The position numbers were made by a program, and so were the translations under genes. 45,401 nt of DNA from a virus: IMG/VR virus record IMGVR_UViG_3300025141_000190, positions 1 to 45,401 of that record. One strand, 5' to 3'. This document shows positions 13,102 to 33,311 of the stretch, in pieces (the first letter of the stretch is position 1; every line of letters starts with the position of its first letter). The notes beneath the pieces were generated by a model, which worked only from the letters and a program-made list of their open reading frames with translations, made no database searches and was not told the origin of the DNA.

Positions 13102-13404
13102 CTATGTTACGAATACATTAGGGGAGCCTTTACTTATTTTACCACACTGAGGGTAGCTATCCCCTACCTTAGCTATTTGAGCCCCCTCTACAAATACTTT
13201 TGTCTCAGTACTGCTAAGGGTTGGCGAATGAGATTTACACTTTTTACCCATTTTACGGGTGTGACTTTCTGTTCTACCCCCTACAAAATGTACTTGTTCA
13301 CCATTTATAGTTATAGAAGATTTAGAGGATCTGCACTCAGTTTCGCTGTCGCAACCATGGTTTAATCCAGTTACTTTATCACCTGTTCTTGCTACTGCTT
13401 TCAT
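13102..13404 (-). CDS. PAAR-domain spike tip protein (T4 gp5.4-like)
   Basis: PAAR proteins cap the central tail spike with a sharp metal-bound cone that pierces the outer membrane. The 100 residues show the family layout: an ARTGDKVTG start, then ITINGEQVHFVGG, and finally KVFVEGAQIAKVGDSYPQCG with a GSPNVFVT end. Candidate metal ligands are H16, H48, H59 and C87. The domain stands alone with no toxin or extension. It should sit on the gp5-like spike encoded about 25 kb away at 38453. It lies four bases after the cysteine-rich gene, so the two are surely co-expressed. Confidence 0.9.
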   Translation of the reverse strand: MKAVARTGDKVTGLNHGCDSETECRSSKSSITINGEQVHFVGGRTESHTRKMGKKCKSHSPTLSSTETKVFVEGAQIAKVGDSYPQCGKISKGSPNVFVT

Positions 13405-13407
13405 AAT

Positions 13408-16400
13408 TTATGGTAGGGGGTCAGGAGGATTAGTTCTATCCTCTAAAGGCTTTTGAACTAATTTGGGGTTATCTCTAAAGAAATCAAAACTAATAGGTTT
13501 CATATCACTTCTAACCTCTTTAACTTTTGGGTACCTATTTTCTACAGCCTTATGTATTTTACCCATACTAGCTAGAGATTTAAACCCTTCTAAATCATTA
13601 CATTCTCTCTGTAAATATTTTATTTGCTCTCTGCCCATCTCATCATATACATCAGACCACTTAACTATATTGCCACTAACATCCCAGTTGGCCTTAAAGT
13701 CTTTTAAAACTTCAAACAATCGTCTGGTAGGTCCTTTTGGTCTAGGGAGTACAGGAGTTATGTTAGTATAGTTTACTAAATTAGTTAATTCCTTAGTATT
13801 TATTCCATATTCTTTGGCATTATGGGTAGGGTTAGATATGCTTATTCCTGGCTTGGGGTAAGCGAAAGATTCTTTTATGTGAGGGGCTTTCCAAACATCG
13901 CTTCTTTCTGGGTCAGGATGCACTTCAAATGTAAGTTCCCTAACCCCATAGGACACATACTTAGACAAGGAGTGGAAAGGCACATCCTTAGTCTTATCTG
14001 TAGGTATTAAAACTACAGTGGGTAAAAATCTTCTTATTGGTCTAATTAGTCTGGGGTCATCAAATATATCGAACACAAAATCTTTAGTAGTTAAGTTTAT
14101 TATTCCCCCATTAGTAATGTAATTAAAGATAGGATCATCAGCATCAACTCTAAACACCATAAAGGGGAATGGGAATTTACTAACCCAATCATCACGTACA
14201 GTGCTGTCAGTCTCATAAGTATACGTAACCTGAGTTTTAGAGATAAAAGAATTTTCTCTCTCTAAATCCGTAACACTACTTAGATTTGCTGTTAACATAT
14301 AAAAATTCTTTCTCTCATTAGTAACCCCATACCGCTCATCTAAATATAAATCAGGAGCAGAGGACACATTTAAAGTAAAGTCGTATGTGTCATCCATTAA
14401 GTACATTATCTTTTGTAAAGTTTCTAACTGAAGTATCCGTGCCCTATCGAAATCTCCCTGTACAGGTATCTCCGTATAACTTCCATTGGAAGTAGTTATT
14501 CTTTGGTAATCCCCTTCGCTCATAGTGATAGACCCACTAGAGTTAAGATTTATAGTATCATCAATCTTATAATAAAGTTGTGTTTTAGTACCATCCGATA
14601 AAGTAATAGGTAGATTTTTATCTAAATCAGTAGCTAAAGTCTTCCAATACTTCATCCTTTCGTTATCACCCTCTGAATACACATTACCTTTTAACCTAAA
14701 TGCATTATCTCCCGCAAGCTTAATAGCCCTACCTTCATTTACAGTGGGCGATAGAGATTTAAGTTCTGATAGTCTAGTGTCTGGGTACTTAGTTTGGTTT
14801 CTAATAATATTCTTTAATAAATTTATTAAATCATCGCCAGACAAAGTATGAATTCTATTAGAGATTAGTAACTCTCTAATAGTTCCTAGCATTTGAGACT
14901 TTATAGACTGTCCTGTTGCTAACTTAGCCTGATTCAATAGATTTACAAGATTAATATGCAAGCTGTTTTCAATAGCACCATCGTCTAAATCTGAGTATGG
15001 TATATCAGAAAACAAACCTCCTTTAATTCCTTTATTATTTAAATCATAGACTGCCCGAACAGAAGTATGAACTGTAGTCTTAAAAAGACTTGCTGGTAAA
15101 GTTCCCCTATTTATAGGAAGGAACTCTGTATTAGAAAGTTTATAAGTTTTATTACTATGATTTCTCTCAAATACCTCATCAACATAGGTCATTGAGTAGA
15201 CTCTATCTTTTTGAGAATTATTGTACCCAGTATCATTTGATAACTCTTCATCCCCACAGCCCCCATCCTTACACTGAGGTTCATTAATATACATGTGATT
15301 AGGGTAACAAACGGATGGTAATGTTTTTCCACACTCATCTACTATAGTTACTTCCTGACATTCTTCTCCACCTCCTGCTCCTGTTTCATAATCAAATGGC
15401 ATACGCACACAATCCCAACAAGAATATTCACAATCGTCTATATTACATAAAGCATCACAATCATCTTTAGTTTCCCCCATAGAGCAAGGCACCCCACATC
15501 TTTGTGTGCCAACTCCATCAGGAGGCCCATCACAGTCAGCCTCAAAGCTACAATCCCCCGTAGTGTCATCACAGACAGGACATTTTTTCAGACAATTCCC
15601 TCCACCTGGACCACCTTCCTTATTACATGTTATTCTATCTGGGAATGTTCCATCAGGACAACCCCCACCAACTTTATTTGTAGTTTTTGTGCAACACCCA
15701 CAATCATCAGGGTTACATTTCCAACACAGAGTATCAAGTTCATCACCACATACTTTCTCACACTCTTCAATAGTATCTCCATTTGGGCAATCTTTATCAC
15801 AATAAACTTGGCACCCAGTCTGCCAATCACAGGTACCATCATTATTACATTTAGGACATGCTTTTCCAAAACACTTCGTTTGGCACTTATACCAATCGTC
15901 ATTACAACCAGGAGGCCAAACCCAATCTCCTTTAACTCCGTCCCATGTCGCATTACAGGTGGCATTACAGCATATGCAACCTGTTCCAATATCGGCACCA
16001 CATTCATACCCATCAGGTGGGGGTGACGGAGGTGGGATCATTGGTCCAGTACCAGGCGTTAGTGGCCCTCCTCCTCCAAAACCACCTCCACCATCCCATT
16101 TGTTACAGTTCTTTTCTGAAGACTTACAGATTAATGGATCTAAATATAAATTAACCCCATTCAAAGTACAATCTATACCACAGTCTCCAGTATCAGGAAG
16201 TGCGCCACATTGACCTGTCAAATCAAATATTATAAAGTCAGTCCAAGCACAAGGCACATCCTTTGGAAATGCTTGATCACAATGGTATCTCCTACAAATT
16301 TGATCACAATACTGGTCACAGGGACCGCTATCTGCCCAGAATGTAGTCCCATCAATATCCCAAGTGGGTGGTGGCTCACAATTAACTTCATCAAACCCTG

Positions 16401-16614
16401 GTATACTATCCGCAGGGATTGAGCTTGTTGAACAACCTCCTCCTTTATCCTCGTCGCACCAGAACGCTACAACTTCATCACATCCACCACCGCAACTATC
16501 AGGGTTGCAGACGCAATCACATCCTGGAGGTCCACCATCCCCTCCACCTCCAGACCCCCCACCTCCTCCAATATCTCCAGGAGGTGCTAAGGTGCAAGAT
16601 ATCCAGATAGACAT
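13408..16614 (-). CDS. 1068-aa protein with extremely cysteine-rich N-terminal half, probable baseplate-region virion protein
   Basis: Not recognised as a whole. Residues 12-31 are almost only Gly and Pro. Residues 7-453 contain about 59 cysteines, with Asp, Gly and Pro abundant, while the remaining ~615 residues have essentially one. Within the rich half, C253-C300 and C345-C402 are diverged copies of one unit: CPxC, then G[TD]C, a long loop, [EDK]xC-[ED]xxC, then CWxC. A second Gly/Pro linker lies near 174-200. The C-terminal part looks like an ordinary folded structural protein (KFPFPFMVFRVDADDPIF, then IRPIRRFLPTVVLIPTD). The gene lies between the 850-aa protein and the PAAR gene inside the baseplate/fibre cluster. 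The Cys-rich part could be a disulfide- or metal-stabilised knob chain exposed outside the cell; this is inference. Confidence 0.85.
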   Translation of the reverse strand: MSIWISCTLAPPGDIGGGGGSGGGGDGGPPGCDCVCNPDSCGGGCDEVVAFWCDEDKGGGCSTSSIPADSIPGFDEVNCEPPPTWDIDGTTFWADSGPCDQYCDQICRRYHCDQAFPKDVPCAWTDFIIFDLTGQCGALPDTGDCGIDCTLNGVNLYLDPLICKSSEKNCNKWDGGGGFGGGGPLTPGTGPMIPPPSPPPDGYECGADIGTGCICCNATCNATWDGVKGDWVWPPGCNDDWYKCQTKCFGKACPKCNNDGTCDWQTGCQVYCDKDCPNGDTIEECEKVCGDELDTLCWKCNPDDCGCCTKTTNKVGGGCPDGTFPDRITCNKEGGPGGGNCLKKCPVCDDTTGDCSFEADCDGPPDGVGTQRCGVPCSMGETKDDCDALCNIDDCEYSCWDCVRMPFDYETGAGGGEECQEVTIVDECGKTLPSVCYPNHMYINEPQCKDGGCGDEELSNDTGYNNSQKDRVYSMTYVDEVFERNHSNKTYKLSNTEFLPINRGTLPASLFKTTVHTSVRAVYDLNNKGIKGGLFSDIPYSDLDDGAIENSLHINLVNLLNQAKLATGQSIKSQMLGTIRELLISNRIHTLSGDDLINLLKNIIRNQTKYPDTRLSELKSLSPTVNEGRAIKLAGDNAFRLKGNVYSEGDNERMKYWKTLATDLDKNLPITLSDGTKTQLYYKIDDTINLNSSGSITMSEGDYQRITTSNGSYTEIPVQGDFDRARILQLETLQKIMYLMDDTYDFTLNVSSAPDLYLDERYGVTNERKNFYMLTANLSSVTDLERENSFISKTQVTYTYETDSTVRDDWVSKFPFPFMVFRVDADDPIFNYITNGGIINLTTKDFVFDIFDDPRLIRPIRRFLPTVVLIPTDKTKDVPFHSLSKYVSYGVRELTFEVHPDPERSDVWKAPHIKESFAYPKPGISISNPTHNAKEYGINTKELTNLVNYTNITPVLPRPKGPTRRLFEVLKDFKANWDVSGNIVKWSDVYDEMGREQIKYLQRECNDLEGFKSLASMGKIHKAVENRYPKVKEVRSDMKPISFDFFRDNPKLVQKPLEDRTNPPDPLP

Positions 16615-16618
16615 TTAA

Positions 16619-19171
16619 CTAGATGGAGCTATTTAAAACAAGTACTGGGTTAGTTCCACCTAAAGCTTCTTGTTTAAATCCTTGTGGGTATCCTATCACA
16701 GAAAATTTTATAGTGGGGTATAGACAAACTCCCCATGAGTTATTAGCTAAATTACCCCAAGGGCTAGATTGTAGGCTAGTATTTTGATCCTGTACTCCTT
16801 GGTGAAGATCTGAGGTCACAGCAAAAGAGGCAAAGCCTCCCCAATCACCACCGTATACTCTTGAGTTATTTCTAATATTTTGTGGATGATATTGATTAGA
16901 GGTTACAATAGTATTTCCAGTACCTGCATCAACACCATCAGGGGTCAAATTGGGATTAGGGGCACTATAAGCACAAATAATATTAAAGAATGTAGGATAT
17001 TTTTCTACATACAACCCACAGTAATTATTCCATACTGGATCAGGAATTGAGCCCAAAGCTGCCGCAGCAGAACCACTTCTAGGCGCACAGTTTGCATAAT
17101 CTAATATAACTTCATAATCAGTCATCCAAGAAACTTGAGTCTTATCTAAATTTATTCTTTTCTTTAGATAAAATAACTGTGATCCCGTCAGGGATACACT
17201 GGGAGTAACATCTCTTTTGTTTGCTTCCGTTGGTGCCCTAGACATTGCTCCACCACCTGTATCTACAAGCCAAGTATCTGCATAGGTCAAATTATGTGCT
17301 GGTGTGGCAAATGCATTTGTAAAATTTGGTCCTCCAGGCTGACCCGCCTTAGCTTCCCCTGCCGCAACAAAAGATGTATTTATCCAATCTGTAGGACAAG
17401 TTCCTCCAGGCTGATCGCCCCCTACATTTTCAGCCCAAGATGCTATATCCCAATCAGGGTCTAAAGGAATATTTACTGGTGAAGCTGTATAACCTAAGTG
17501 ATTATAAAAATAGCTATCAATTATTCCTCGATTAGTAGCAAGATCATTATCATTACTCCATCCCCAAACCGCATCAGAAATTCTAGAAAAGGGAGATTGA
17601 TCTTGTAAATCCGTTCCTTGGGCCATAGCTATTAGGATTCCCTCTACCCCATACCTAATACCACCAAATATAGTACCAGCACCAACAGGTCTGGGATAAT
17701 CAGGGGCGTAAGAACCGTTGCCTATATCAGATTGTATTTTACTGTTTAGTTTATCTAGCTTATTTCCTATAGATTGAGAAGTTTCAACTGGGTTAGCTAG
17801 TGATGTGGGTGGGTTAGCTGCCGCAATCCCAGCCCGTTCATTGTATGCTAATTCAGCGGTTCTAAAGAAGGGTCTGATATCTAAAATATTATTATTAGAT
17901 ATAGAAGTCTCGCCCTTATGTACAAAGATATAAGCTAGTGGTAATACTGACTGTCCAACTAAAGCACCATAAGCTCCATTACTTATTTCAGAGTATATGT
18001 AAGGAGCTAAATTCATTAGGTCGTCTGGGCTTGGGAAGTTGCCATACACCCCACTTGTACCAAACAAAGATTGGTCCTGGTCAGTAATAGGAGAAGATAT
18101 TTTTAAATTTCCTTCACTATCAAAAGTATTTCCTTGTTCAAACCAATAATTCTTATCTTTAAAATTATCATTATACTCATCTGAATCTAGGAAAGTCTTA
18201 TCTATAGTTTTTCCAGTCCACCCACCAGCACCCTTGAGAGATACTAAACCAGCACCCCTCACTAACCCTAATTGAGGTTCTGTAATACTTGCAGCAGCAG
18301 ACCCCACAGGATAAGCTATAGAAGTAGAAGATGCATCTATTGGTTTGGTGTATACAAAAAGAAGATCTATTCTAACATTAGGTACATAAGTATTAGCAAC
18401 CTCTTTAACATAATCACTATCATCAAACTCTGGGACTCTAATACCAAGTGGTTTTTCTACATTAACTAAGGAGGTTCTAAACGGCGCACCCCATGCCCTC
18501 GCCCACTCTGTAGACCTCTGTTGCAGTCCAGTAAAGTCAGGTAAATAACTATGAGTTGTGGTGTCTGGTTGCCATAAAGCTAATTTAATTTTCGGTATAT
18601 CTAAAATGCCATCATTGCTTTTATCATTTTTATTATCATAGGTATAAAAATTTCCCCAATCTACTATACTATCCACAGTAGCGTTAGATGCATGGTGCTG
18701 TAAATGATCATACAAACCATTATTTCCTATAATAGCGTCTGTAGTCTCCCCGATTAATCTACGAAGAACTTGAGAATCTATAGACATACTCTCCTGAGTA
18801 TTATAAATTCCTTTAGAGTAATCGCCTTTCGCATTAACCAGGAGTCTGGATATACCAGTATGATAAGCATCATTTACCCTACCTATAAAATTACCAGGAG
18901 ATACTTTAATAAATCTATCGCTTCCTTGAGCAGTAGGCTTAAGCTCATCAAACTCCCTCCTGGACCCTGACGAAGTAGATATATCATCAGTACTAAGTTG
19001 ATCCTTCAACCATAGTATATTCTCTTGCAGTTGTTGAATTGGTATATTATCAACTGTCCAATGATAAGGATCATTAGCCTTAAATACTCTCACGGGGTCT
19101 ACAAATTTGTGACTACTCTTTTTAAAACTAGTATCTCCCTGCCCTTGTCCATTACCAAATATATCACTCAT
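16619..19171 (-). CDS. 850-aa baseplate-associated/fibre-type virion protein
   Basis: The family is not named with confidence. The N-terminus (residues 25-58) holds a motif shared with the next protein upstream: Trp, then DN-[IL]-P-[IL], a Leu, a Glu and a second Trp (WTVDNIPIQQLQENILWLKD). This probably anchors both to the baseplate. Residues ~90-300 and 350-440 look like mixed beta structure, with the conserved-looking ILDIRPFFRTAELAYNERAG near residue 430. The C-terminal ~350 residues are rich in Gly, Asn, Trp and Tyr, as in receptor-binding regions. The start codon overlaps the stop of the 1182-aa gene by one base, and the stop is four bases from the Cys-rich gene's start. A host-binding or baseplate decoration role is inferred from position. 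Confidence 0.8.
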   Translation of the reverse strand: MSDIFGNGQGQGDTSFKKSSHKFVDPVRVFKANDPYHWTVDNIPIQQLQENILWLKDQLSTDDISTSSGSRREFDELKPTAQGSDRFIKVSPGNFIGRVNDAYHTGISRLLVNAKGDYSKGIYNTQESMSIDSQVLRRLIGETTDAIIGNNGLYDHLQHHASNATVDSIVDWGNFYTYDNKNDKSNDGILDIPKIKLALWQPDTTTHSYLPDFTGLQQRSTEWARAWGAPFRTSLVNVEKPLGIRVPEFDDSDYVKEVANTYVPNVRIDLLFVYTKPIDASSTSIAYPVGSAAASITEPQLGLVRGAGLVSLKGAGGWTGKTIDKTFLDSDEYNDNFKDKNYWFEQGNTFDSEGNLKISSPITDQDQSLFGTSGVYGNFPSPDDLMNLAPYIYSEISNGAYGALVGQSVLPLAYIFVHKGETSISNNNILDIRPFFRTAELAYNERAGIAAANPPTSLANPVETSQSIGNKLDKLNSKIQSDIGNGSYAPDYPRPVGAGTIFGGIRYGVEGILIAMAQGTDLQDQSPFSRISDAVWGWSNDNDLATNRGIIDSYFYNHLGYTASPVNIPLDPDWDIASWAENVGGDQPGGTCPTDWINTSFVAAGEAKAGQPGGPNFTNAFATPAHNLTYADTWLVDTGGGAMSRAPTEANKRDVTPSVSLTGSQLFYLKKRINLDKTQVSWMTDYEVILDYANCAPRSGSAAAALGSIPDPVWNNYCGLYVEKYPTFFNIICAYSAPNPNLTPDGVDAGTGNTIVTSNQYHPQNIRNNSRVYGGDWGGFASFAVTSDLHQGVQDQNTSLQSSPWGNLANNSWGVCLYPTIKFSVIGYPQGFKQEALGGTNPVLVLNSSI

Positions 19172-22100: not shown

Positions 22101-22719
22101 AGGAAGATACACAGGTCTCTGTAGAGATGGCACTACTGCTTAATAAATGATAGATAGCTCCCGAAGCACCTAATGTTTTTGGTAGGTACATATGTCCAAA
22201 AGCTTCATCATCAGCTTGTACAACAACACTACTAAAATCATTTTGTATTAATGGAGCAAAACCTCTATTTACAATTTCTAAAACACCATCATCTTCACAT
22301 TTAATATTATTAAGATTTAATTCTCCTAAGTCACCGCTAACTGCCACTTCAATAAGAGTAGGCATCCTAATAATTTCTGGGAGGGCTTCTATTGCTGCGG
22401 ATAAAGATAGGAACTTATTGGGTGTTGCACCACGGGCAGGGTCGTAGCTGTATGCCTCTGTTGAGCAGTGCGTGTCCTCCACCCCAAGAGGACCACAGGT
22501 GTTAGAGGATACAATCAGAGCCATCCCAGGGGCACCAGACAATGGATAGCCAAACCTCTCCCATAAAAGCTGAGTTCGCTCTTCTAGATCATAAAGAGGT
22601 AAGTTGTCTTGTTCCCAATTATAGAAAGAAGAGGTATCGTGCTTAGTAACAAAAGGGTTCCAATAATTAAATACGGTGAGCCCAGATGAAACTGAATATA
22701 AATCGTTAATATCAAACAT
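19171..22719 (-). CDS. 1182-aa beta-helix tail fibre or tailspike-like protein
   Basis: A right-handed parallel beta-helix is suggested by the repeating pattern of short strands with Asn, Ser and Gly turns from about residue 120 to 800. Examples are CTNLTIENCGSMRCTQAG, then FKLVNSDVNFV, GIHMENSVLRG, NTNLYLSNSKYT, GLLMNNSKFTYN and PGVVVNNSTAEF. Such folds occur in tailspikes that bind or cut polysaccharide. No catalytic residues can be assigned from sequence. The N-terminus has the anchor motif W35-DNLPL-DLEERTQLLW53 shared with the 850-aa protein. Residues ~85-150 resemble the cap of pectin-lyase-like folds (a Ser/Ala helix followed by LIEVAVSGDLG). The last ~350 residues are mixed and may hold a separate receptor or trimerisation domain. 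Translational coupling exists on both sides. Confidence 0.82.
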   Translation of the reverse strand: MFDINDLYSVSSGLTVFNYWNPFVTKHDTSSFYNWEQDNLPLYDLEERTQLLWERFGYPLSGAPGMALIVSSNTCGPLGVEDTHCSTEAYSYDPARGATPNKFLSLSAAIEALPEIIRMPTLIEVAVSGDLGELNLNNIKCEDDGVLEIVNRGFAPLIQNDFSSVVVQADDEAFGHMYLPKTLGASGAIYHLLSSSAISTETCVSSLFNWETSVGHTRKFVLPARGVSGAGGYNSPGYCYPGISDNNVQWVQDIPYRLAANPISVIAGKPVYSIQTDATMASLDLSTINLGTGNDLAGAQYQDNQVVNGIITANWLTKVEAQNCDGPIYIRGFVVDGGNSFTTGFGIQNCTNLTIENCGSMRCTQAGFDIKNSSVNLRRQAFAARNYDVADRGTLTTYGFKLVNSDVNFVTDSYNSGVAAKLASHFHDYGIHMENSVLRGGDKISNTEQLDVFSTDLGFNNTNLYLSNSKYTMDGILNTYNGVDNIKALDSVIETEQTRSSYAKKNGLLMNNSKFTYNKNYSSSAIGLDTAKQQSGNGIVSNNFPILFDRNGQHIVMGGGSTYGPTYGSGMDITTLYNMELYNEHHAMFDSFGQGNAVDASKPGVVVNNSTAEFTAAKFLCSDSKATPFKSSPVALSVINGGKATVRGLTYTTLNGASVFAGANKRKAAAVVADGGSTINFTGPVGIYGFGLGAAATNRSTLSIAPPLDGTDSVIDIRSENDFATLSGWGGGANKATPLMEVHSMKAGLVADNNSNLIIKDLGYVDNMWPTASLTDDRVMTPQYIDLIMSGGLQFYPNKADRNAANMIIDHGGWPTTGNRWNRCEEETVYNAMLAADASLSCYRLLYNADYSTDTETFFRGVSLGGECVRATNNSSVKVMNVHFPMGFANMDGSFYDASTSPAGCNNLMIWNIADSSQLHASHCAVSGTHPVLAGYTGPKAVYFKEGDVYGLSAASSLPPGTPDTGIISVLDHFGSGVSFSSLDMGNSGVSSFMSDIQKARTGITTMQTYGESEYQNRGPFRLYFSVSPAAKKLFYCSAVDVGHIPRVSDSYDDNRPYQHLSQGYLLSGTCSALTTMSSMYPNLLNERSHAENGGVLVTSGYYYPDSMAATTKPSVWLSESAASIFANARHCSTDYSNRIKYVNIYDSDVNVHSQGEITTGFTEGYGLGFRTSNIFDLERDT

Positions 22720-23303
22720 TAGAATTGCAGAGTCCAGCGGAATATGAGACTAAAATCATCAGTCTTGGTTATGTCAGTAAAAGGTCTATAAGCTACTAGT
22801 ATTGGGGAAACAGGCGTAAGACCTCTTGGATTACGCATAAATAATCCTACCTCATTTATAGTTTTTAAATTTAAAGTTAATTTATCTAGTACCAATATGT
22901 ATCTAACAGAAGTACTAGTTACTTTTCCTATATTACTAAATCTAATACGAGCAAATGGAAGATCACTACCTCTTAACGATCCGCTTTCTACAGGCTCTAA
23001 ATCTTCTAGCAATAAAGTTGTTGTGGACCCCCAATCTCCTGACTTAAGAACAGGTTTTTGTAGTTTGTATGTAGATACTCCGTAATCATTGTAATCTCCT
23101 CCCGAACCCACTGCGAAATTTAATATTTGGTAGTCTGTAATTGTGGTTCCTCCAGAAGCCGCAAATAAATGAGACCATCCTACCCCCATACCTGATGTAA
23201 TTATATTATTCTCATCAAATACTAATTCTTCTCCACCATCATTAAATACTTTATATATTTGTAAATGTCCAGTAGGGTTTATTGTATTATTATTATTGTC
23301 CAT
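22719..23303 (-). CDS. Tail fibre/collar-like paralogue A, minimal form (194 aa)
   Basis: The shortest of three tandem related proteins. It contains only the shared terminal parts. Residues ~8-90 hold GHLQIYKVFNDGGEELVFD, then NNIITSGMG and a segment ending ILNFAVGSGG. Residues ~148-194 hold TINEVGLFMRNPRG, a VAYRPF strand and a terminal WTLQF. This two-part layout recalls phage tail-collar fibre domains (favG, then I.EVGLF, then LVAY). No receptor insert is present, so it may be an assembly or capping unit of the same ring or fibre. I chose ATG at 23303, 26 bases after the upstream stop; the frame is open back to a TTG at 23360, which has no ribosome binding site. It overlaps the beta-helix gene start by one base. 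Confidence 0.8.
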   Translation of the reverse strand: MDNNNNTINPTGHLQIYKVFNDGGEELVFDENNIITSGMGVGWSHLFAASGGTTITDYQILNFAVGSGGDYNDYGVSTYKLQKPVLKSGDWGSTTTLLLEDLEPVESGSLRGSDLPFARIRFSNIGKVTSTSVRYILVLDKLTLNLKTINEVGLFMRNPRGLTPVSPILVAYRPFTDITKTDDFSLIFRWTLQF

Positions 23304-23329
23304 TATATTTATATAGGATGTTATCCCGT

Positions 23330-25015
23330 CTAATTGATATCTATCACACTCAATTCCCAATCTATTATATACGAGAATTCATTATTTTTATTTATTGGAG
23401 GATCAACTTTTTTATAGGCAACCATCATAGGCTCATCCCTGCCAGTTGAACCCTTTGGATTTTTCATAAATAACCCTACCTCTTTTATAGTCTTATCATT
23501 AGCTAATTCCTCATCAATTAATAATCTAACTGTAAAGGTATTATCATGTAAGGATGTAGTGTATCCATTAGGAATACTTAAAACATCTTGAGCAGACGTA
23601 ATATAGTAAGGTTTTTCAGCATGTATAGTTTGATAAGGGGAGGCACTAGTACTATACTCAAACTGATAATTCGCTATATAAACCTCCTCTCTAGGAGTAA
23701 CCTGATGGTTCGTATTCCCCACTAATTCCCCTCCCACTATACCAGAAACACTACTTACCATAGGAAATATTTTAGGTACACAGTCAGTGCCAGAAAAATT
23801 TCCAGAGCTTGGATAAAAAATTGAGTTAGGAACCCCCACTAAACTAGCAGAAATTCTATAGAACTGCCCACTTGGGCCGAACCCGCTATTAGAGGTATCA
23901 TAACAGTCTGCCCCTGGCCCACTCCTTGTTGCATAGGTAGGATGATCTTCATAGGTATACATCTCTCCAGCACTGCATTCCACATTAGCTGACAATGTTC
24001 CACCAGATACACCAACACCATAAATAGATTCCCACCTATTAAAGCAAGACACATCCTTAGCTACACATTCTTCGAATCCAGTACTACCGCTTAACACTGC
24101 TGGTGGATACCAACGATCAATATTATCCATATCATATCTGTATCTAAAAGTGGCTCTATTCTCTCCAGCGATAGAATCCCCAATAACTCCACTACTTATC
24201 TTATTAAATAGTTGTAATTCAGATGTTAACGGGGTCGAAGAAGAAGTAGATAAACTAGATAAATAATATGTTGGGGAGATGTAGATAGAGTGAGTCTGAT
24301 TTTCTCTTATACTATTCCAAATAGGATGAGTTGTATTATCACTATAAACATACTTAGGATTAGTGGTTATACTAGATTTTACAATCCCAGAAACATTTCT
24401 GTTTGCAGTATAAGAAAATTTATATGTAGGAGGCACATACGAGGGACCAGAAGCAGTAATATCTACAGTACTTGAAAGAGGCCAAATACCAAAATTATTT
24501 TTATCGGATGAGAATACTGGGTCGTTAGCAATCCATATCGAAGAGGGAGTATATCGTATGCTTTCGTTCATTCCATCGTCGTAAGTTCTAAAATTATTAG
24601 AATAGTCTACTGAAATTTTAGTATCTTCAGGAGGATCTATAAAATTATCAAACACTTTAGTTCTGTGTAGAGGGACTATAGACCCCACCCCATAAACATT
24701 TTTAGTTGTAACAGCAATTACACTATCTCTACCATAGTCTAAAAGAGCCATAGGATCTTTAAGGGACCAGACATGTTTCCTTAACCTCTCTTCTGGAATA
24801 TCAGTGGATACGTCATAAGAACTTAAATTATAACTGTCTTCCCCTAACTGAAAATATCTAAGCTGAAAATCATTTATATCTGTGGATCCAACATTAGACA
24901 AAATATCTGTCATTCCTAGAGAGAATCCAGTAGTTACCATATTAGAATCTTCATAGATAACTTCGGTTTCTCCAGTCTTTTTGCTGACTTTTTTTATTCT
25001 AAAATGTCCTCTCAT
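23330..25015 (-). CDS. Tail fibre/collar-like paralogue B with ~370-aa central insert (561 aa)
   Basis: Shares the N-terminal domain (GHFRIKKVSKKTGETEVIYE, NMVTTGFSLG, LRYFQLGEDS) and the C-terminal domain (TIKEVGLFMKNPKG, MMVAYKKV, IIDWELS) with paralogue A. Between them, from about residue 95 to 470, is an unrelated insert rich in Ser, Thr, Tyr and Gly, with several Cys, typical of surface-exposed beta domains. I chose ATG at 25015. It overlaps the upstream stop (ATGA) and has GGAGG ten bases upstream; the frame extends to a TTG at 25033, less likely. The insert is likely the exposed, host-contacting part; its fold is unknown to me. Confidence 0.83.
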   Translation of the reverse strand: MRGHFRIKKVSKKTGETEVIYEDSNMVTTGFSLGMTDILSNVGSTDINDFQLRYFQLGEDSYNLSSYDVSTDIPEERLRKHVWSLKDPMALLDYGRDSVIAVTTKNVYGVGSIVPLHRTKVFDNFIDPPEDTKISVDYSNNFRTYDDGMNESIRYTPSSIWIANDPVFSSDKNNFGIWPLSSTVDITASGPSYVPPTYKFSYTANRNVSGIVKSSITTNPKYVYSDNTTHPIWNSIRENQTHSIYISPTYYLSSLSTSSSTPLTSELQLFNKISSGVIGDSIAGENRATFRYRYDMDNIDRWYPPAVLSGSTGFEECVAKDVSCFNRWESIYGVGVSGGTLSANVECSAGEMYTYEDHPTYATRSGPGADCYDTSNSGFGPSGQFYRISASLVGVPNSIFYPSSGNFSGTDCVPKIFPMVSSVSGIVGGELVGNTNHQVTPREEVYIANYQFEYSTSASPYQTIHAEKPYYITSAQDVLSIPNGYTTSLHDNTFTVRLLIDEELANDKTIKEVGLFMKNPKGSTGRDEPMMVAYKKVDPPINKNNEFSYIIDWELSVIDIN

Positions 25016-26964
25016 AGGAAAGAAATCCTCCAATGTATCTCCAAAGGAGCATAGTTACCAACTAAACCTATTTTATCTGCCCCACCAAAAATACTCTTAT
25101 CTTTTCCCTCACACTTTACAACATTATCATTTAATATTATTTTACTAAATAGTTTATATCTTCTAGTAGGCTCCTTAGCAATGTTACTAGTATCATATAT
25201 TGCACTGTAAGGGGGGTTGTCTAAAATATTAATGTCCCTAATTGCTTTTTGGTCTATACCCCACAATCCTATTATATCCACCCCTCCAAAAATATTTAAA
25301 AGTGGGGAATCTTTTTGTATTCCTGCTGCTACATTACCTATTTTTGCTATGTAAGAAATATTTCCTGTTGATGAAAAATCAGAATCAACGCTCTTAACAA
25401 ACAAACTATCGGAGGCCGCTACCTCTGGCAACAGAAAACTAGATGCTCCATTACCTGATAATGCCCAAAAGCCATACCTATCTATACTGCTGGGGGTACC
25501 TACAATTCCATTGTATAATAACTGTGATACTAATGGAGAGGAATACCCAGACATAGCTAAGGAAGATAAACTAGTTATGTATTGTGTCGCGATGGGAAGA
25601 TCTGTTCTATCTACATAAGCTCCTAGATAAGCTACATGCCTCCCTAACCCAGTATTTGAATCATCGTAATGCGTCCATCCCGTATCAAAAGAACTTAAAT
25701 ATAGATTAGAAGATAAAGATATAGCGGCAGGAATCTGTCCCTTTATAAAGTTTATACCTAAAGCTTCTTCCACAGGAGTTCTGGCAAAGGGAGTAAGCTC
25801 TCTATCTTGGTAACTAACTGGTGGACGCAATCCAGAGGTCTCTGGTAAGTATGCTGAAGCTCCCTTATCTAAAGGAGCATCACCGTATACAGAGGATAGA
25901 GATCTTCCACCAGTCCCACTCATCACATTATAAACATATTTATATACAGTACCATTATGACCATAAGGCTTAGTATCATTTAATAACGAATAAGCCAGAG
26001 TGTTATCTCTACCCACTGATTCAGAAGCAGTGTTTACATATTCTGTAGGGACCTTCCCTAATTCTAATTGTGGTCTAGAGATATATATGGATCCTGCACT
26101 AGAATCTACAGCAGAGGAACCATACGATGTTGGCAAGAATCCTCTATATGAGGGGTATATACGGGGAGTCATTGCTGAAGGATCAACCTTCCCTCCTCCT
26201 TGTAAAACTGTGGTATATACTCTATACCAATCATTACTAAGTTTTTTAATTCCTCCTACACCAGTTCCTGGCTGAGTATAATCATGAAACCTATTAGGAG
26301 CCAAGGAAGCTTCTCCGTACTCATTCCATTTCACAACCGTAGCATAGAAACCTCCCGCTGCCTGACCAACACCAGGAATAATAACACTATACCCACTATA
26401 GTCTGGACCACCAGACATCCCAACAGGTGGACTATCTCTGTTCATTTTCATATCTACAGAGAATGTAAAATTAGCCCCACTAAAGTAAGGCTCATCAAAA
26501 GCACTTGCATGACCAGCGTACCCAGCACTACCATCAATATTTATTATCTGAGTAAAATACCCAGCAGAAGTAGTAGCCTCTACTAACATCCCACTAGTCC
26601 CAGAAACAGGACCTATAGTGGCTCCTGGGGTAACTATAACTTCATTAGAATCATCCCAATACTCTGTACTAGATAATACAGAATTAAGAATTAAGTTAGT
26701 AGTACTATAAGCGTGTTGGTTTTTCTTAAATTGCTGTATATCTTTGGACATAGAAAATGCTTGAATCTCATAGTTTGAAGCATCTAATGCGTGATTATTA
26801 CTTAACTGGCTACTGCTATCTGTTGGGAATTTTATAGAAGATGGGGTAGTTAATAAGTCAGTTATCTGTTCTGAGAACCCAATAACAGTCATGTTATTTT
26901 TCTTGTATACTAATTCCTTAGTACCCTCAGATGTTAACTTGTATATTTCTACTACGCCCTTCAT
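25012..26964 (-). CDS. Tail fibre/collar-like paralogue C with carbohydrate-binding-type insert (650 aa)
   Basis: The N-terminus (GVVEIYKLTSEGTKELVYKK, NNMTVIGFS) matches paralogues A and B, and the end (LEIHWRISFL) matches their terminal strand. The EVGLF segment is replaced by IFGGADKIGLVGN, with a second copy IFGGVDIIGLWGID about 70 residues earlier. Residues ~88-315 form a jelly-roll module like those common in phage fibres: NLILNSVLSSTEYW at the start, DWYRVYTTV, and IYISRPQLELGKVPTEYVNT at the end. That pattern belongs to carbohydrate-binding-like domains. A second domain follows to ~540. The start is an ATGA overlap with the 2116-aa gene. Binding of host surface glycans is inferred from the module type. 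Confidence 0.85.
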   Translation of the reverse strand: MKGVVEIYKLTSEGTKELVYKKNNMTVIGFSEQITDLLTTPSSIKFPTDSSSQLSNNHALDASNYEIQAFSMSKDIQQFKKNQHAYSTTNLILNSVLSSTEYWDDSNEVIVTPGATIGPVSGTSGMLVEATTSAGYFTQIINIDGSAGYAGHASAFDEPYFSGANFTFSVDMKMNRDSPPVGMSGGPDYSGYSVIIPGVGQAAGGFYATVVKWNEYGEASLAPNRFHDYTQPGTGVGGIKKLSNDWYRVYTTVLQGGGKVDPSAMTPRIYPSYRGFLPTSYGSSAVDSSAGSIYISRPQLELGKVPTEYVNTASESVGRDNTLAYSLLNDTKPYGHNGTVYKYVYNVMSGTGGRSLSSVYGDAPLDKGASAYLPETSGLRPPVSYQDRELTPFARTPVEEALGINFIKGQIPAAISLSSNLYLSSFDTGWTHYDDSNTGLGRHVAYLGAYVDRTDLPIATQYITSLSSLAMSGYSSPLVSQLLYNGIVGTPSSIDRYGFWALSGNGASSFLLPEVAASDSLFVKSVDSDFSSTGNISYIAKIGNVAAGIQKDSPLLNIFGGVDIIGLWGIDQKAIRDINILDNPPYSAIYDTSNIAKEPTRRYKLFSKIILNDNVVKCEGKDKSIFGGADKIGLVGNYAPLEIHWRISFL

Positions 26965-29900
26965 GATGTTATATTTATTGTTATTTGTCCAGGGAAATTG
27001 TCTGTTCTGTTAGAAACAACTAAGTTGCCTCTTGGTTCCCAGTGATTACCTTCAAGGGGCCAGAATACTGGTACCTTGTTATTTACTAGTAAGTCCTCCT
27101 CTATTACAGGATCTCCAGCAGAGTAATTGTGATAAAATGGATAAAACATACAATTTGATTTATATAATAAACCACTTGCGGAATCCATAACTGATTTTGT
27201 GGGGTTATATACAGGACGAAGGATGGCGTTAACTCCTGCATACTTTAGTCTCGTTGGATTATTCCTATCATCTCGTACCATCCAAAGTATACTAGAGCCT
27301 CCAAGATTTATCACTCCGCTAGATACCTCAGGTGCTTCCCCAGTGTCTGGACTTATCTCATATCCAGAGGTAACCCATGTATTACTACCTGTTCTATAAA
27401 ATATAGCCCCCGCACCAGAATCCCCAGCACCGTGAACTATGGGATAATCAGGATCTCCTGGAACTCTACAGTTGGAACCTTTATCTCTAATGGCAAATCT
27501 TACGTACTCAACAGGGGTGTGATCTATAGGGTTATTTGCTGTAGGTTCAGTTATGTAAGCATAAAATAAAGTATATCCTATCACATCAATGTAATCTATT
27601 CTTCCATCTGTATGGTATTGAGGAGTTAAATCTTTTCTTATATAGGATATTTCATCTTGTCCTTCTGTATTTATACATGGATTCATGTAATCAGAAGCTT
27701 GATAATAGAATACGGGTAATGAACTTCCATTAAGAACACTAACGGTAGAGGGGGTTAGTTTAATTGGGTCAGGATAATTTTTAAGAGCATTCTTATCAAA
27801 TAATGGACTGTTACATACCCAGTGCCCCTCACCAGGTGTACCAACCCATTGATCGCCATCCTCTTCAAAACATGGCTGATAGATACCAGGACCGCCTATA
27901 TGGTCCCAGTGGAAGCTATTTGCTATCATGTTATCATTAACAGCACTAACAAAAGAAAAACTACTAGGTCCCTGACTACTAAGCTCTACCTGTTCATATA
28001 TAGCAGATAGAATTATGGTTTTACCAGCAGCAGCGGCATGGGCAGACACGTATATCCCAGGAAATCCTGACGGGGGAGTTGCAAAAGTTTGAGTTAGTTC
28101 ATGACCTTGACCTATTTCAGTTCCCCCAGATGTAGTCATTCTCCAATCTTCACCAGAAACGGCAGTTCCCCCAGCAGACCAGTACCAGTAACAGGGCTCA
28201 TTCAAGAATGGTACTCCTGGGCCAGAGGCTCCCCCTATATTAGCGGGTATTCTGGTTAGTGCCCCCTGCGGCGCATTAATTGATGTAGCACTAAACCATA
28301 ATGGTGCTGGGAATGTACCTCCTGAATACTCACCACCCCCAGGACTAGACATAACATCATTTACTAGTTTCTGTTTAACATATAACCTAAACTCATCTGT
28401 TCTTTTATCTACTTTAACCGAAGAAGAGGATTGATCATCAAGATGAAATATTAATGAGTACTCTTTCCAGGTAGCCACACTTGGCAACGCAGATAGACCC
28501 ACACGTAAAGTTGCACTAGTAGAAAATTCAGGAGTATAGATAGGAGAATTTCCACTAATGATAGACCAGGGAGATGCTATTACCCAATTATTGGTTACTC
28601 CAGTTCCGCTAACAGTATAGTATATTAAAGCACTAGATTCCAAGGGTCTATCAAAATCTATATTCACATCATAATAAACTATTCCACTTGCATTAGCTTC
28701 TCTAAAGTCTGGGTATACCGTTAATTGTCGGTATTTTGGGGTGGTGGCCCCTGGGAACTCATAACCTTCGTACCTAGTAGGTGTAGACTTCCTAAAACTT
28801 GCAACAGGAGCAGGTAACATCCCCTTCTCATCAATATATAATTCCGTGTACTGATGATTATTACTTTCATAAGTTGGGAATCCCCCAGGCTGCACCCACA
28901 TAGGAGAGAGGCTGTAAGGTATTCTACTGCCCCCATTAGGTCCGAATTTAGAAGAGCTAATAAGAGAATTTCTAGACCCTAGATCTTTTTGTAATTTATT
29001 GTATTCTCTTAAAATAATTAATGTGTCTTGTGGATCTATGGGTATAGATAGTGTAGTCTCTGTCAATATATTAGATCCTAAAGTTCTACCTTTTATTACT
29101 ATAGAAGAAGGTTCTAAAATAGAATTATCCCCTATCTGTATAAGACCTGTGTACTTACTTTCTAAGAACTTTAAAGTTGCATTGTTTTGATCAATTATCC
29201 ATTTTTGCGGTCGAATTATGTCTAGCTGGGAATACAGAAGGGTTGTTGATTTACCCGTACCATAAGAAGCTGCCTCCTGATAGGTTATTTTATCTCCTGT
29301 GTCTGGGGAGGTTAGATTTCCTGAAGAATCCGCTGAAAGTATTGCCCCAGAAGGAACTAAGGTACCATCAGAGTACAAGAACCTAAAATCACTTTGCAAT
29401 ATAGTCTTATACTCATCATAATTATTATAATTAAAGGTATGTGGCACAGATAATCTCCTGTATTGAGTTATATCTTTAACATACAAGGCATCTATCATTG
29501 CATACTTAGAAGTTCCTATATTAGGATACATAAATAATTCAATCACATACCTCTGATCTGCTCTATGCACTTGTTGATGAACTTGATAATATTCTAAAGG
29601 TACTTTTATTAAATTGTTAAAAGTCCTGAATTTAAGTTTTGTTTTCGTGAAGTCTTCCTTATTAACATTAGCTAAAGCATCCTTATCTGAATCAGGAATA
29701 TAGTAGGTGGAATCGCCAACCCCACTACACCCAGACTCTCCCCCAGATGAGGTTTCAAATCCAGCACCTCCACCCTCTCCCAGACCCACCAACTTGGTAT
29801 CATTATACTCAAGTTTATGGGATAAAGTATCCCTAACGAAGTCTGGTCCTGTGGAATCAGAGGTAACATCTGAAACATTATGCATTCGCCATGTTCCATC

Positions 29901-32900
29901 AGGCATGTAATTCCAAAAAACAGAATTGCCGTGCTTATCAGTCTCTAGGTCTGTATGTATCCATACCCCAAATGATCCCCCACCCAAGTATAAAGAATTT
30001 TTATTTCCAACCTCTGCTAATAACGAGACTTCAAACTCATGCTCAGGAACTAATAAATTAGTTAACCCTCCATAATCCTTTACACTATAACGGAGTCTGG
30101 GGAATCCCTCATCGGGATCTATTATTACTACAGAATTATCTACTAAATAATTCTCTCTCCCTGCTATAGAGGTACTAGGATCTAAATTAAATACACTAAA
30201 AGTAGAGTTACTGTTACTTGATAAGTCTGTGAATTCTAAACCAGAAAGAACATAAGGATTTCTATTTTCCCCAGACCCTATACATAAAGAGTCAGAACTC
30301 TGCGCTACATGGGTATCCAATCCCGTAAGATCCGTTACTTTAAATGGATACTCCTCACTAAGGGATTTACTTATTAATTGGGAACTTACATTCAACTCTA
30401 TAGACGATCCCAATACTTCAAAATTACCATTGTATATAAGAGGGCCGAAAGCATGTGAAAGGATGTTCAACCCACCATCAGGATAAGTTTCTAATAATCT
30501 AGTTCCTACACCATGAGCCGCATAATAAGTAATGTAATCTTTATACATTTTAGGTATGCCCCTAATAGAACCTATACTCATCTTACCTTTTCCTAGCTGA
30601 ATGTTATAAATATCATCATAATCAAAAGAATAATTATTCCAAAGATCTTCTTTATACGTTGCGGCAGCATCTAGATAGGAAGACCCGTCTAGTAAAAAGT
30701 TATTTTTACTTACGACATAAGCAGCTTCGTATTGAAATCTTTTTTGTAGTAAGTTATATAAAGTTAAGAAAAATTCAGGTGTGCGTTCTCTAGCGACATA
30801 ATTATGGCAAGTAGATGGGGCTAAAGAAGTGGTTCCTCGTATATCAAACATCGAGGACGCTGCAATACTTCCCATATAACGATCAGAAAGTAATGTCCAA
30901 CATGGGGACCACACAGTTAAATCATAGGGGTAAGAAGATACTTCATAGACATCTAAAGGGTTTACTACTTTGTGATACTTAAATAAGGAATTCAATAACC
31001 CTAAAGAATGGTATTCTAAATCCGTTCCCTCACTACTAGCATTATAGTAAGAAGGCATATTAAACCCAGTTCTAGAGTATAAGCCTCCTTTGGTTAAAGT
31101 ATTTTCGTAATTACGTCTTCGTGTATTAGTTCTATAAAGGTCTGATAAAGGTATAGAAGATACAGAAGACCCCATCAGGTTAAGTTTCTTTAAATTACCA
31201 TCCACAAAAGATCTAGAAAATACAGGTTTATTTGTATGATCAAATTCAAAATAGGAAGACCCAGCTACATCAACAAAATCTCCTCCAAAAACACGAGGAA
31301 TACCTCTAAAGTCCACACCAGATGAGGACCCAGCAGCCATAAAACCATAAGTAGGAATATCTTGATCTTCGTATCTTACAGATGGGCAAACATGATCAAA
31401 CGGGCTGAGAAAATCTGTATTGGTTAATGAAACCCTAACTCTAGGTATAGATTTCGCAGGAGTAAACTCATCCACTATAGCTAAAGCATTAAAGAAGTCT
31501 TGTTTAGTGGTAAATACCCCAGTGAAGAACGAGGAATCAAACGACCCACTGGAAACATTTATATCAAATCTAGAGGATTTACCACTCCACAAAGGAAGAT
31601 AATCATATTTATCAACTTGATAATTATTTATTATATCCTCTTGATTAGGTGGTAAATTTATAGAGCTAGTTAGGAATAGAAACCCGTTGTTATAAAATTT
31701 AATATCCCTATCACCCCCCACAGTATGAACAGTAACAAACTCTCTAAATCTTTTACTGTTCTGAAGAGTAACTCCAAACCTAACAAGCTCTTTTTCCAAG
31801 AAGGATAACAAAGCTTCTGTTACATCACATTCCATATAAAACTTTTCTTCTTCCCATGGTGGGATAGGAAAAGTTCTGTTCCTGTACAAAAATATAAAAT
31901 TAGGGTCATCTACATTAAATTGATAATTATTTATACTAAACAGATATGGAAATTTACATACGGCCCTTAATAAGATATGATCTACAACCATTCTAACATT
32001 ATTATCCATTATGGAACTATCGTAATCTGAGCCTATATGTTTTTGGGCTTCAGGTACTGTCCAAGAACTAAAACTACTTAGCAAAGTAGAATCAGTTTTT
32101 AATAAATAATAAAGTAAGTAGGGAATATAGGATTCATAAAATTCTGATATGCTGGAACTTTGGAGGTTAATATCTGGAAGAACAGTAGTTATAGCATTAT
32201 AAATTCCTTTCTTAGTTCCTTTCTGCTTATATAAATCTACCGCACCTCTTATTTGTCTTCTCCAAGACTCTTCATTAGATCCATATAGCTCCCACCCAAT
32301 TAAATCAGACAGGTAAGGGAGGAGATGCGCTGGACACTTTTCTATATCATAAAGATCCCCTATGCCAGCTACCTGATCATTAACATCGAAAAATGTGTAG
32401 GATGCTGCTTGTAAAAATTTAGAGAATGGAGCGGCAAGCTCTTGCCCAGTGAGGAAAGTTCCATACTCTATATAAGAATCAAAAGAATCTTTTACATAAG
32501 TATCCTCTATATCAGAAGGCAACTCAGAGTAGGCTACATCAACTAAAGTAGTTAAACCCTTTAGATTTTGGGTACCACTAACAAACTCTCCCGTACCAGA
32601 GTAATAATTTATAGGTAGAACGTCTGATGATATACTAGAGACTGACCCCCAATTGTGCCACAGGTATTCAGTTAATCCTTTAATACCCGTATTAGTATTA
32701 AATATCTTATTCGTATAATACGTATCTGCTATAGAACTAGCTACATAACTTGACGTTGATATATTAGACCCAGAAGTATTTAAGAAATAGGCCCACCCTA
32801 ATAAGTTTATTAGATATTCATGAGTTCCCGAAGCTGTTGGACTGAAGGCACTTACTGTTGTTTCCGCTAGAGAAGAAGAATTTAGACTTATCTTAGGTAA

Positions 32901-33311
32901 AACACTAACTTCCAAAAAGTTAATAAAATCCTTTTCTTGATTAAGCACAAAAGACGATACCCCGCTATCTCCTGTAAAGTAGGTGCAGGGTTGCCCAGTA
33001 TGCTCACCTATACAAAACCCTAAAGGATGCATGATGCCTAATTCAAAATCTCTTGAGTTAACTTCAGTTAATTTATTTTTAGGAAGAAACCATTGTGCCA
33101 TCCCAGAAACAGTATCTAGCTCCGTGTAATTGTCTGTAGCTGATATCCCTAATATAGAAGGTTGGTTTATACAAAAGTTAATATGGCTATTTATTAGGGA
33201 GTCTGTGGCTGTTCTTTGTAAGCCACTGATAGAGAAATCCTCGTTAAAGTATACTTCAGGTATTACACTTTTAAGAGACTCTAAATAAGTTCTTTTGTAT
33301 GATTTAGGCAT
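26961..33311 (-). CDS. 2116-aa baseplate wedge protein with P2 gpI / T4 gp7-like N-terminal region
   Basis: The largest gene in the window. Residues ~320-380 carry the tail protein I pattern: CPAHLLPYLSDLIGWELYGS, then WRRQIRGAVDLYKQKGTKKG, the segment typical of P2 gpI and its relatives, whose fold also occurs in T4 gp7. It follows the gp6-like gene directly (overlap of eight bases), just as 7 follows 6 in T4. T4 gp7 is about 1030 aa, so this is twice as long. The remainder is mostly beta-rich. Around residue 1700 the GTAVSGEDW segment resembles Calx-beta-type repeats, though I am unsure. It probably acts as the wedge arm and platform for the fibre proteins encoded next. Confidence 0.78.
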   Translation of the reverse strand: MPKSYKRTYLESLKSVIPEVYFNEDFSISGLQRTATDSLINSHINFCINQPSILGISATDNYTELDTVSGMAQWFLPKNKLTEVNSRDFELGIMHPLGFCIGEHTGQPCTYFTGDSGVSSFVLNQEKDFINFLEVSVLPKISLNSSSLAETTVSAFSPTASGTHEYLINLLGWAYFLNTSGSNISTSSYVASSIADTYYTNKIFNTNTGIKGLTEYLWHNWGSVSSISSDVLPINYYSGTGEFVSGTQNLKGLTTLVDVAYSELPSDIEDTYVKDSFDSYIEYGTFLTGQELAAPFSKFLQAASYTFFDVNDQVAGIGDLYDIEKCPAHLLPYLSDLIGWELYGSNEESWRRQIRGAVDLYKQKGTKKGIYNAITTVLPDINLQSSSISEFYESYIPYLLYYLLKTDSTLLSSFSSWTVPEAQKHIGSDYDSSIMDNNVRMVVDHILLRAVCKFPYLFSINNYQFNVDDPNFIFLYRNRTFPIPPWEEEKFYMECDVTEALLSFLEKELVRFGVTLQNSKRFREFVTVHTVGGDRDIKFYNNGFLFLTSSINLPPNQEDIINNYQVDKYDYLPLWSGKSSRFDINVSSGSFDSSFFTGVFTTKQDFFNALAIVDEFTPAKSIPRVRVSLTNTDFLSPFDHVCPSVRYEDQDIPTYGFMAAGSSSGVDFRGIPRVFGGDFVDVAGSSYFEFDHTNKPVFSRSFVDGNLKKLNLMGSSVSSIPLSDLYRTNTRRRNYENTLTKGGLYSRTGFNMPSYYNASSEGTDLEYHSLGLLNSLFKYHKVVNPLDVYEVSSYPYDLTVWSPCWTLLSDRYMGSIAASSMFDIRGTTSLAPSTCHNYVARERTPEFFLTLYNLLQKRFQYEAAYVVSKNNFLLDGSSYLDAAATYKEDLWNNYSFDYDDIYNIQLGKGKMSIGSIRGIPKMYKDYITYYAAHGVGTRLLETYPDGGLNILSHAFGPLIYNGNFEVLGSSIELNVSSQLISKSLSEEYPFKVTDLTGLDTHVAQSSDSLCIGSGENRNPYVLSGLEFTDLSSNSNSTFSVFNLDPSTSIAGRENYLVDNSVVIIDPDEGFPRLRYSVKDYGGLTNLLVPEHEFEVSLLAEVGNKNSLYLGGGSFGVWIHTDLETDKHGNSVFWNYMPDGTWRMHNVSDVTSDSTGPDFVRDTLSHKLEYNDTKLVGLGEGGGAGFETSSGGESGCSGVGDSTYYIPDSDKDALANVNKEDFTKTKLKFRTFNNLIKVPLEYYQVHQQVHRADQRYVIELFMYPNIGTSKYAMIDALYVKDITQYRRLSVPHTFNYNNYDEYKTILQSDFRFLYSDGTLVPSGAILSADSSGNLTSPDTGDKITYQEAASYGTGKSTTLLYSQLDIIRPQKWIIDQNNATLKFLESKYTGLIQIGDNSILEPSSIVIKGRTLGSNILTETTLSIPIDPQDTLIILREYNKLQKDLGSRNSLISSSKFGPNGGSRIPYSLSPMWVQPGGFPTYESNNHQYTELYIDEKGMLPAPVASFRKSTPTRYEGYEFPGATTPKYRQLTVYPDFREANASGIVYYDVNIDFDRPLESSALIYYTVSGTGVTNNWVIASPWSIISGNSPIYTPEFSTSATLRVGLSALPSVATWKEYSLIFHLDDQSSSSVKVDKRTDEFRLYVKQKLVNDVMSSPGGGEYSGGTFPAPLWFSATSINAPQGALTRIPANIGGASGPGVPFLNEPCYWYWSAGGTAVSGEDWRMTTSGGTEIGQGHELTQTFATPPSGFPGIYVSAHAAAAGKTIILSAIYEQVELSSQGPSSFSFVSAVNDNMIANSFHWDHIGGPGIYQPCFEEDGDQWVGTPGEGHWVCNSPLFDKNALKNYPDPIKLTPSTVSVLNGSSLPVFYYQASDYMNPCINTEGQDEISYIRKDLTPQYHTDGRIDYIDVIGYTLFYAYITEPTANNPIDHTPVEYVRFAIRDKGSNCRVPGDPDYPIVHGAGDSGAGAIFYRTGSNTWVTSGYEISPDTGEAPEVSSGVINLGGSSILWMVRDDRNNPTRLKYAGVNAILRPVYNPTKSVMDSASGLLYKSNCMFYPFYHNYSAGDPVIEEDLLVNNKVPVFWPLEGNHWEPRGNLVVSNRTDNFPGQITINITS

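Follow-up and report, generated by a model that had tools for sequence, protein, structure and literature searches.

A variable, at times cysteine-rich slot in a putative tail-region protein of probable Far-T4-like phages

A gene on the minus strand of the 45,401-nt IMG/VR virus record IMGVR_UViG_3300025141_000190, here called the window and analysed over its whole length, encodes a protein with a conserved leader, a variable slot and a conserved body, and the slot is filled with a cysteine array. This layout, the conserved position of the gene, the variability of the slot and at least two origins of cysteine arrays were observed among related IMG/VR contigs (labelled L005, L131 etc.). On balance, the array is probably an interchangeable, disulfide-rich display structure on a virion protein of the tail or baseplate region, with host binding as the most likely role and oxidation after lysis. 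The cysteine array is one of several fillings that a modular slot takes, and the finding thereby extends from a single odd protein to a virion-cluster protein family.

Gene position and layout of the slot protein

The slot-protein gene (13408..16614, minus strand, ATG at 16614) codes for 1068 amino acids, among them 60 cysteines; the first-pass annotation had given no strand. The first-pass annotation had counted about 59 cysteines in the N-terminal part, and residues 7-453 indeed hold 59 in 447 positions (13.2 %), with C1005 as the only cysteine beyond. The density was also rightly called unusual: the other 28 proteins of the virion cluster contain 83 cysteines per 13,558 residues (0.61 %), thus about 2.7 would be expected per 447 residues (log10 p about -57). 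Since homologues of the same layout are present on independent contigs, an assembly or frame artefact was ruled out. The gene lies, as had been proposed, within a virion cluster, which is T4-like and has a gene order conserved in relatives. The cluster comprises gp25-like and gp6-like baseplate genes, a Tail_P2_I gene, a gp21-type prohead protease and a neck gene; the sheath, tube, portal and scaffold genes were named from reading and position. The start codon sits 4 bases past the stop of the gene directly upstream (16619..19171, minus strand), which encodes an 850-aa virion-cluster protein and is a conserved neighbour in relatives. A clear Shine-Dalgarno sequence is absent ahead of the start codon (16615-16660), an observation that might bear on the host group. 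The stop codon ends 3 bases ahead of a gene for a 100-aa PAAR-motif protein (13102..13404, minus strand; Pfam PF05488, E 7e-8; phrog_281, E 5e-15). The conserved order runs from the gene at 16619 over the slot-protein gene and, in the subclade of the window, the PAAR-type gene to the prohead and capsid genes.

The conserved leader covers residues 1-15 (16570..16614, minus strand) and carries a sole cysteine, C7, followed by PG. All 31 collected members had such a leader, some 15 residues long and with a single cysteine, and in nearly all of them PG came next. The cysteine array that makes up the slot content extends over residues 32-453 (15256..16521, minus strand) and contains 58 cysteines by count. 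It is made up of a pair of ~60-residue modules, a Gly/Pro linker and two larger, ~100-residue units. The first module (residues 45-107; 16294..16482, minus strand) was recognized by alignment with modules at the same position in relatives, the second (residues 108-170; 16105..16293, minus strand) by its cysteine pattern, both with boundaries set by eye. The linker, read from the sequence, spans residues 171-202 (16009..16104, minus strand). The two larger units (residues 203-296 and 297-402; 15409..16008, minus strand), again delimited by eye, have about 95-105 residues each and resemble units in L005, L091 and L011; a match to L005/L006 (E 4e-6) covers residues 193-332. The body, placed by alignments and profile search, comprises residues 467-1067 (13414..15216, minus strand). 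The cysteine-poor structural part described earlier is real, for a body of about 600 residues is kept across the clade. Likewise, the notion of a cysteine-rich part fused to a cysteine-poor part was correct as far as the composition is concerned, but a simple fusion of an N-terminal domain does not describe the protein, as the variable slot lies between two conserved ends.

Relatives, slot turnover and phage lineage

The slot-protein family is absent from all libraries searched. The window protein had no match by tblastn against 50,697 phage records, nor in Pfam, PHROGs, NCBIfam, PDB sequences, plasmids or, by peptide patterns, in viral contigs. A tblastn search with the body at E values up to 10 yielded one chance match. 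Profile search of the cysteine-rich part gave no Pfam match. The statement that no phage protein of this layout had been described held for the databases and for the literature searched for cysteine-rich phage virion proteins. Relatives were reached only via the capsid protein, followed by body alignments and the leader pattern: the capsid-protein search led to 80 loci, in which the gene at the same position was homologous over the last ~600 residues, and body alignments added further members. A viral scan based on the PAAR protein recovered no relatives. The collection amounted to 31 members whose start is complete, including another, partial view of the contig of L091. The resulting set of about 30 slot-protein members had the gene at the same place between the same virion genes. 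The body was modelled from an 11-row alignment at a pLDDT of 62, and a structure search with the model found no fold match. Of six reference phages, five gave no match to the body profile; a match in the sixth, ACG-2014d, had 14 bits and a stop inside and was treated as chance.

The slot differs widely among these proteins. Arrays with 42-82 cysteines occur in the window, L005, L011, L018, L084, L086, L091, L092 and L131, with one extra cysteine module ahead of the leader in L011. The L131 slot contains about 11 copies of the pattern [WY]xC...C...YxTxxxCxxxC separated by Pro/Thr/Gly linkers, and the window array is more elaborate. L040 and L046 have a single four-cysteine module, L063, L127, L129 and L130 other cysteine-containing stretches, and L020, L064 and L119 only a Gly/Pro linker free of cysteine. 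A weak Fn3-like stretch fills the slot of L055. L026 carries GCTNP-type repeats; this GCTNPAAxNYNPxAxxDDGGC unit (L026:3-446) is another short cysteine-containing repeat in slot position. The body tree implies a minimum of two origins for the cysteine arrays, both on supported branches: the clade of the window and L131. Seven members of the subclade have body identities of 40-64 %, whereas their slots align barely better than shuffled sequence. Judged from these alignments, the slot, unlike the body, is a swap-in region that changes fast.

The phages with the slot protein are uncultured T4-like phages, probably of the Far-T4 type. The window gp23 (major capsid protein) was about 32 % identical to T4-like phages among the best matches listed. 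The gp23 tree strongly split the clade from the cyano- and pelagiphage T4-likes and placed RM378 on the side of the clade. With Far-T4 phages (RM378 and uncultured relatives; PMC4360716) the clade shares the T4-like core genes, an uncultured aquatic lineage and a gp23 apart from cyano- and pelagiphage T4-likes. RM378 differs, however, by a very long gp23 branch and a slot-protein body that was undetectable by profile search; membership is thus likely, but not proven. Bacteroidetes/Flavobacteriales are the predicted hosts of marine Far-T4 phages (PMC7198788; PMC13037479). Two scans of bacterial genome contigs revealed no relative of the slot-protein body or of gp23. The phage presumably comes from the deep sea, judging by IMG sample numbers of nearly identical contigs.

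Cysteine pairing and putative function of the array

Cysteine numbers in the slot, counted without the leader cysteine, were even in 24 of the 27 members with two or more such cysteines and odd in three. As relatives are not independent, members were clustered by body identity. Even counts were then found for 22 of 25 clusters at 90 % (p 8e-5), 19 of 22 at 70 % (p 4e-4), 14 of 17 at 60 % (p 0.006), 10 of 12 at 50 % (p 0.019) and eight of nine at 45 % (p 0.020). The spacings CC (z -4.8) and CxC (z -5.4) were depleted in the slots, CxxC was at chance, and CxxxC, Cx6C and Cx10C were enriched (z 4.2, 5.8 and 4.6). The even counts together with the depletion of CC and CxC favour disulfides over metallothionein-like clusters. 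Of the two possibilities left by the first-pass annotation, disulfides or dense metal binding, the former is consequently preferred, and the prediction that the slot cysteines pair as disulfides is well supported by these patterns. If all 58 cysteines of the window slot pair, 29 disulfides would result.

The leader and the ~600-residue body would probably hold the slot protein in the particle, in the tail or baseplate region. Conservation and gene order speak for this anchoring role, the body having no fold or family match; the protein is presumably present in the virion. The Gly/Pro-rich slot between both ends may carry plug-in modules displayed outward. Their cysteines would stay reduced during assembly in the cytoplasm and form intramolecular disulfides once the particle has left this reducing compartment, so that oxidation is expected after lysis. 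The oxidised modules could then constitute a compact, stable, multivalent array outside the tail, which most likely binds material of the host surface; adhesion is the best-supported role that we infer. No member of the thioredoxin or glutaredoxin families turned up on the contig fragments at hand, which are parts of genomes only. A tentative extension, to which we attach clearly less confidence, is a display timed by redox state: the array would be reduced and loosely folded in assembly and become an adhesin only post-lysis, while gain, loss or swap of modules alters the host contact. If the display array as such is correctly interpreted, it implies that the tail matures after lysis, and a little-known marine phage lineage gains a well-defined and rapidly evolving candidate for contact with the host.

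Slot turnover beside a conserved body resembles the tandem BACON arrays of crAss-like phages, which are located in tail-associated proteins, arose at least twice and were suggested to bind the host (PMC6949934). Both systems share tandem small domains, a protein of the tail region and repeated origin, a likeness of working rather than of membership. BACON membership was rejected, as no array scanned had a Pfam match. In contrast to BACON arrays, the domains studied here are rich in cysteine, the array is flanked by a conserved leader and a conserved body, in a protein of a T4-like virion cluster, and the same slot is filled in relatives by other domain types or by none. Ig-like and Fn3 domains are further optional display domains added to phage structural proteins. 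The Fn3-like stretch of L055 recalls them, but they are beta-sandwiches without dense cysteines, unlike the arrays. Swap-in arrays on phage tails are thus a known kind, while the disulfide-rich form is new: our searches found none with tens of disulfide-type cysteines in a particle assembled in the cytoplasm.

A structural staple or stalk, in which intra- or intersubunit disulfides would harden the released tail without direct host contact, is a rather unlikely alternative. It would agree with the disulfide-like spacing, with the Gly/Pro linkers between the L131 modules and with the conservation of the leader cysteine even in members lacking other slot cysteines. Some relatives, however, have a slot without cysteine or with a single module, and the content of the slot is replaced far more rapidly than the body, a trait more typical of contact surfaces than of a shared mechanical part.

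We consider it still less probable that the cysteines bind zinc, copper or iron in the manner of metallothioneins or zinc clusters and thereby stabilise the particle or carry metal. The very high cysteine density with much Asp is compatible with this function, and the neighbouring gene belongs to the PAAR family, known for metal bound at the tip. The depleted CC and CxC spacings and the lack of CxxC enrichment led us to reject a metallothionein-like cysteine cluster; in addition, His is rare in the slot (0.4 %) and the even counts are far above chance.

A 38-residue, four-cysteine module of L131, with 13 copies in its alignment, was modelled at a pLDDT of 82, with short strands and a C-terminal helix bearing the CxxxC. 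The only PDB match of its profile was anntoxin (E 0.24, not significant), which we take to be Kunitz-like. A Foldseek search with the model had no match, a weak test for 38 residues. Kunitz domains end in [FY]x[TS]xxxCxxxC. A small Kunitz-like protease inhibitor that protects the particle or acts on the host surface is nevertheless highly improbable, since the similar module ending stands against a basic module of four cysteines, a first-to-second cysteine spacing of often 5-10 residues that is too short for a Kunitz domain, and the missing Pfam match, for which reason, together with the insignificant PDB profile match, membership was rejected.

PAAR-type neighbours and further genes

The PAAR gene is a separate neighbour, and the slot protein itself contains no PAAR motif. 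The gene directly downstream recalls PAAR proteins such as the T4 gp5.4 spike tip; this applies to the window and, though the matches are weaker, to most of the subclade. Matches above the Pfam cut-off were obtained for the window, L011 and L084, and matches below it for L018, L086, L091 and L005. The gene at the PAAR position had no Pfam match in L092 and L046, and a PAAR-like gene was absent at the position downstream of the slot-protein gene in L040, L063 and L131. In three of the contigs with a weak match, a C-terminal extension enlarges the PAAR-type protein to about 330 aa (L005:5925-6917, L086:7847-8845 and L091:7880-8854).

On a related T4-like contig, three ORFs in a row (L067:10120-12013), each some 210 aa long, contain 14-18 cysteines apiece and are mutually similar by eye; they had no confident Pfam match and are, as far as seen, unrelated to the slot protein. 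Three adjacent genes of the window (22719-26964; 213, 567 and 650 aa) resemble one another at their starts, and an EVGLFM-NP-G motif occurs near the end of two, which suggests paralogous tail-appendage proteins. A further window gene (26961-33311) encodes a 2116-aa protein with a Tail_P2_I stretch at residues 312-383; the protein greatly exceeds the 139 positions of the Pfam model, so that this family accounts for only a small part of it.
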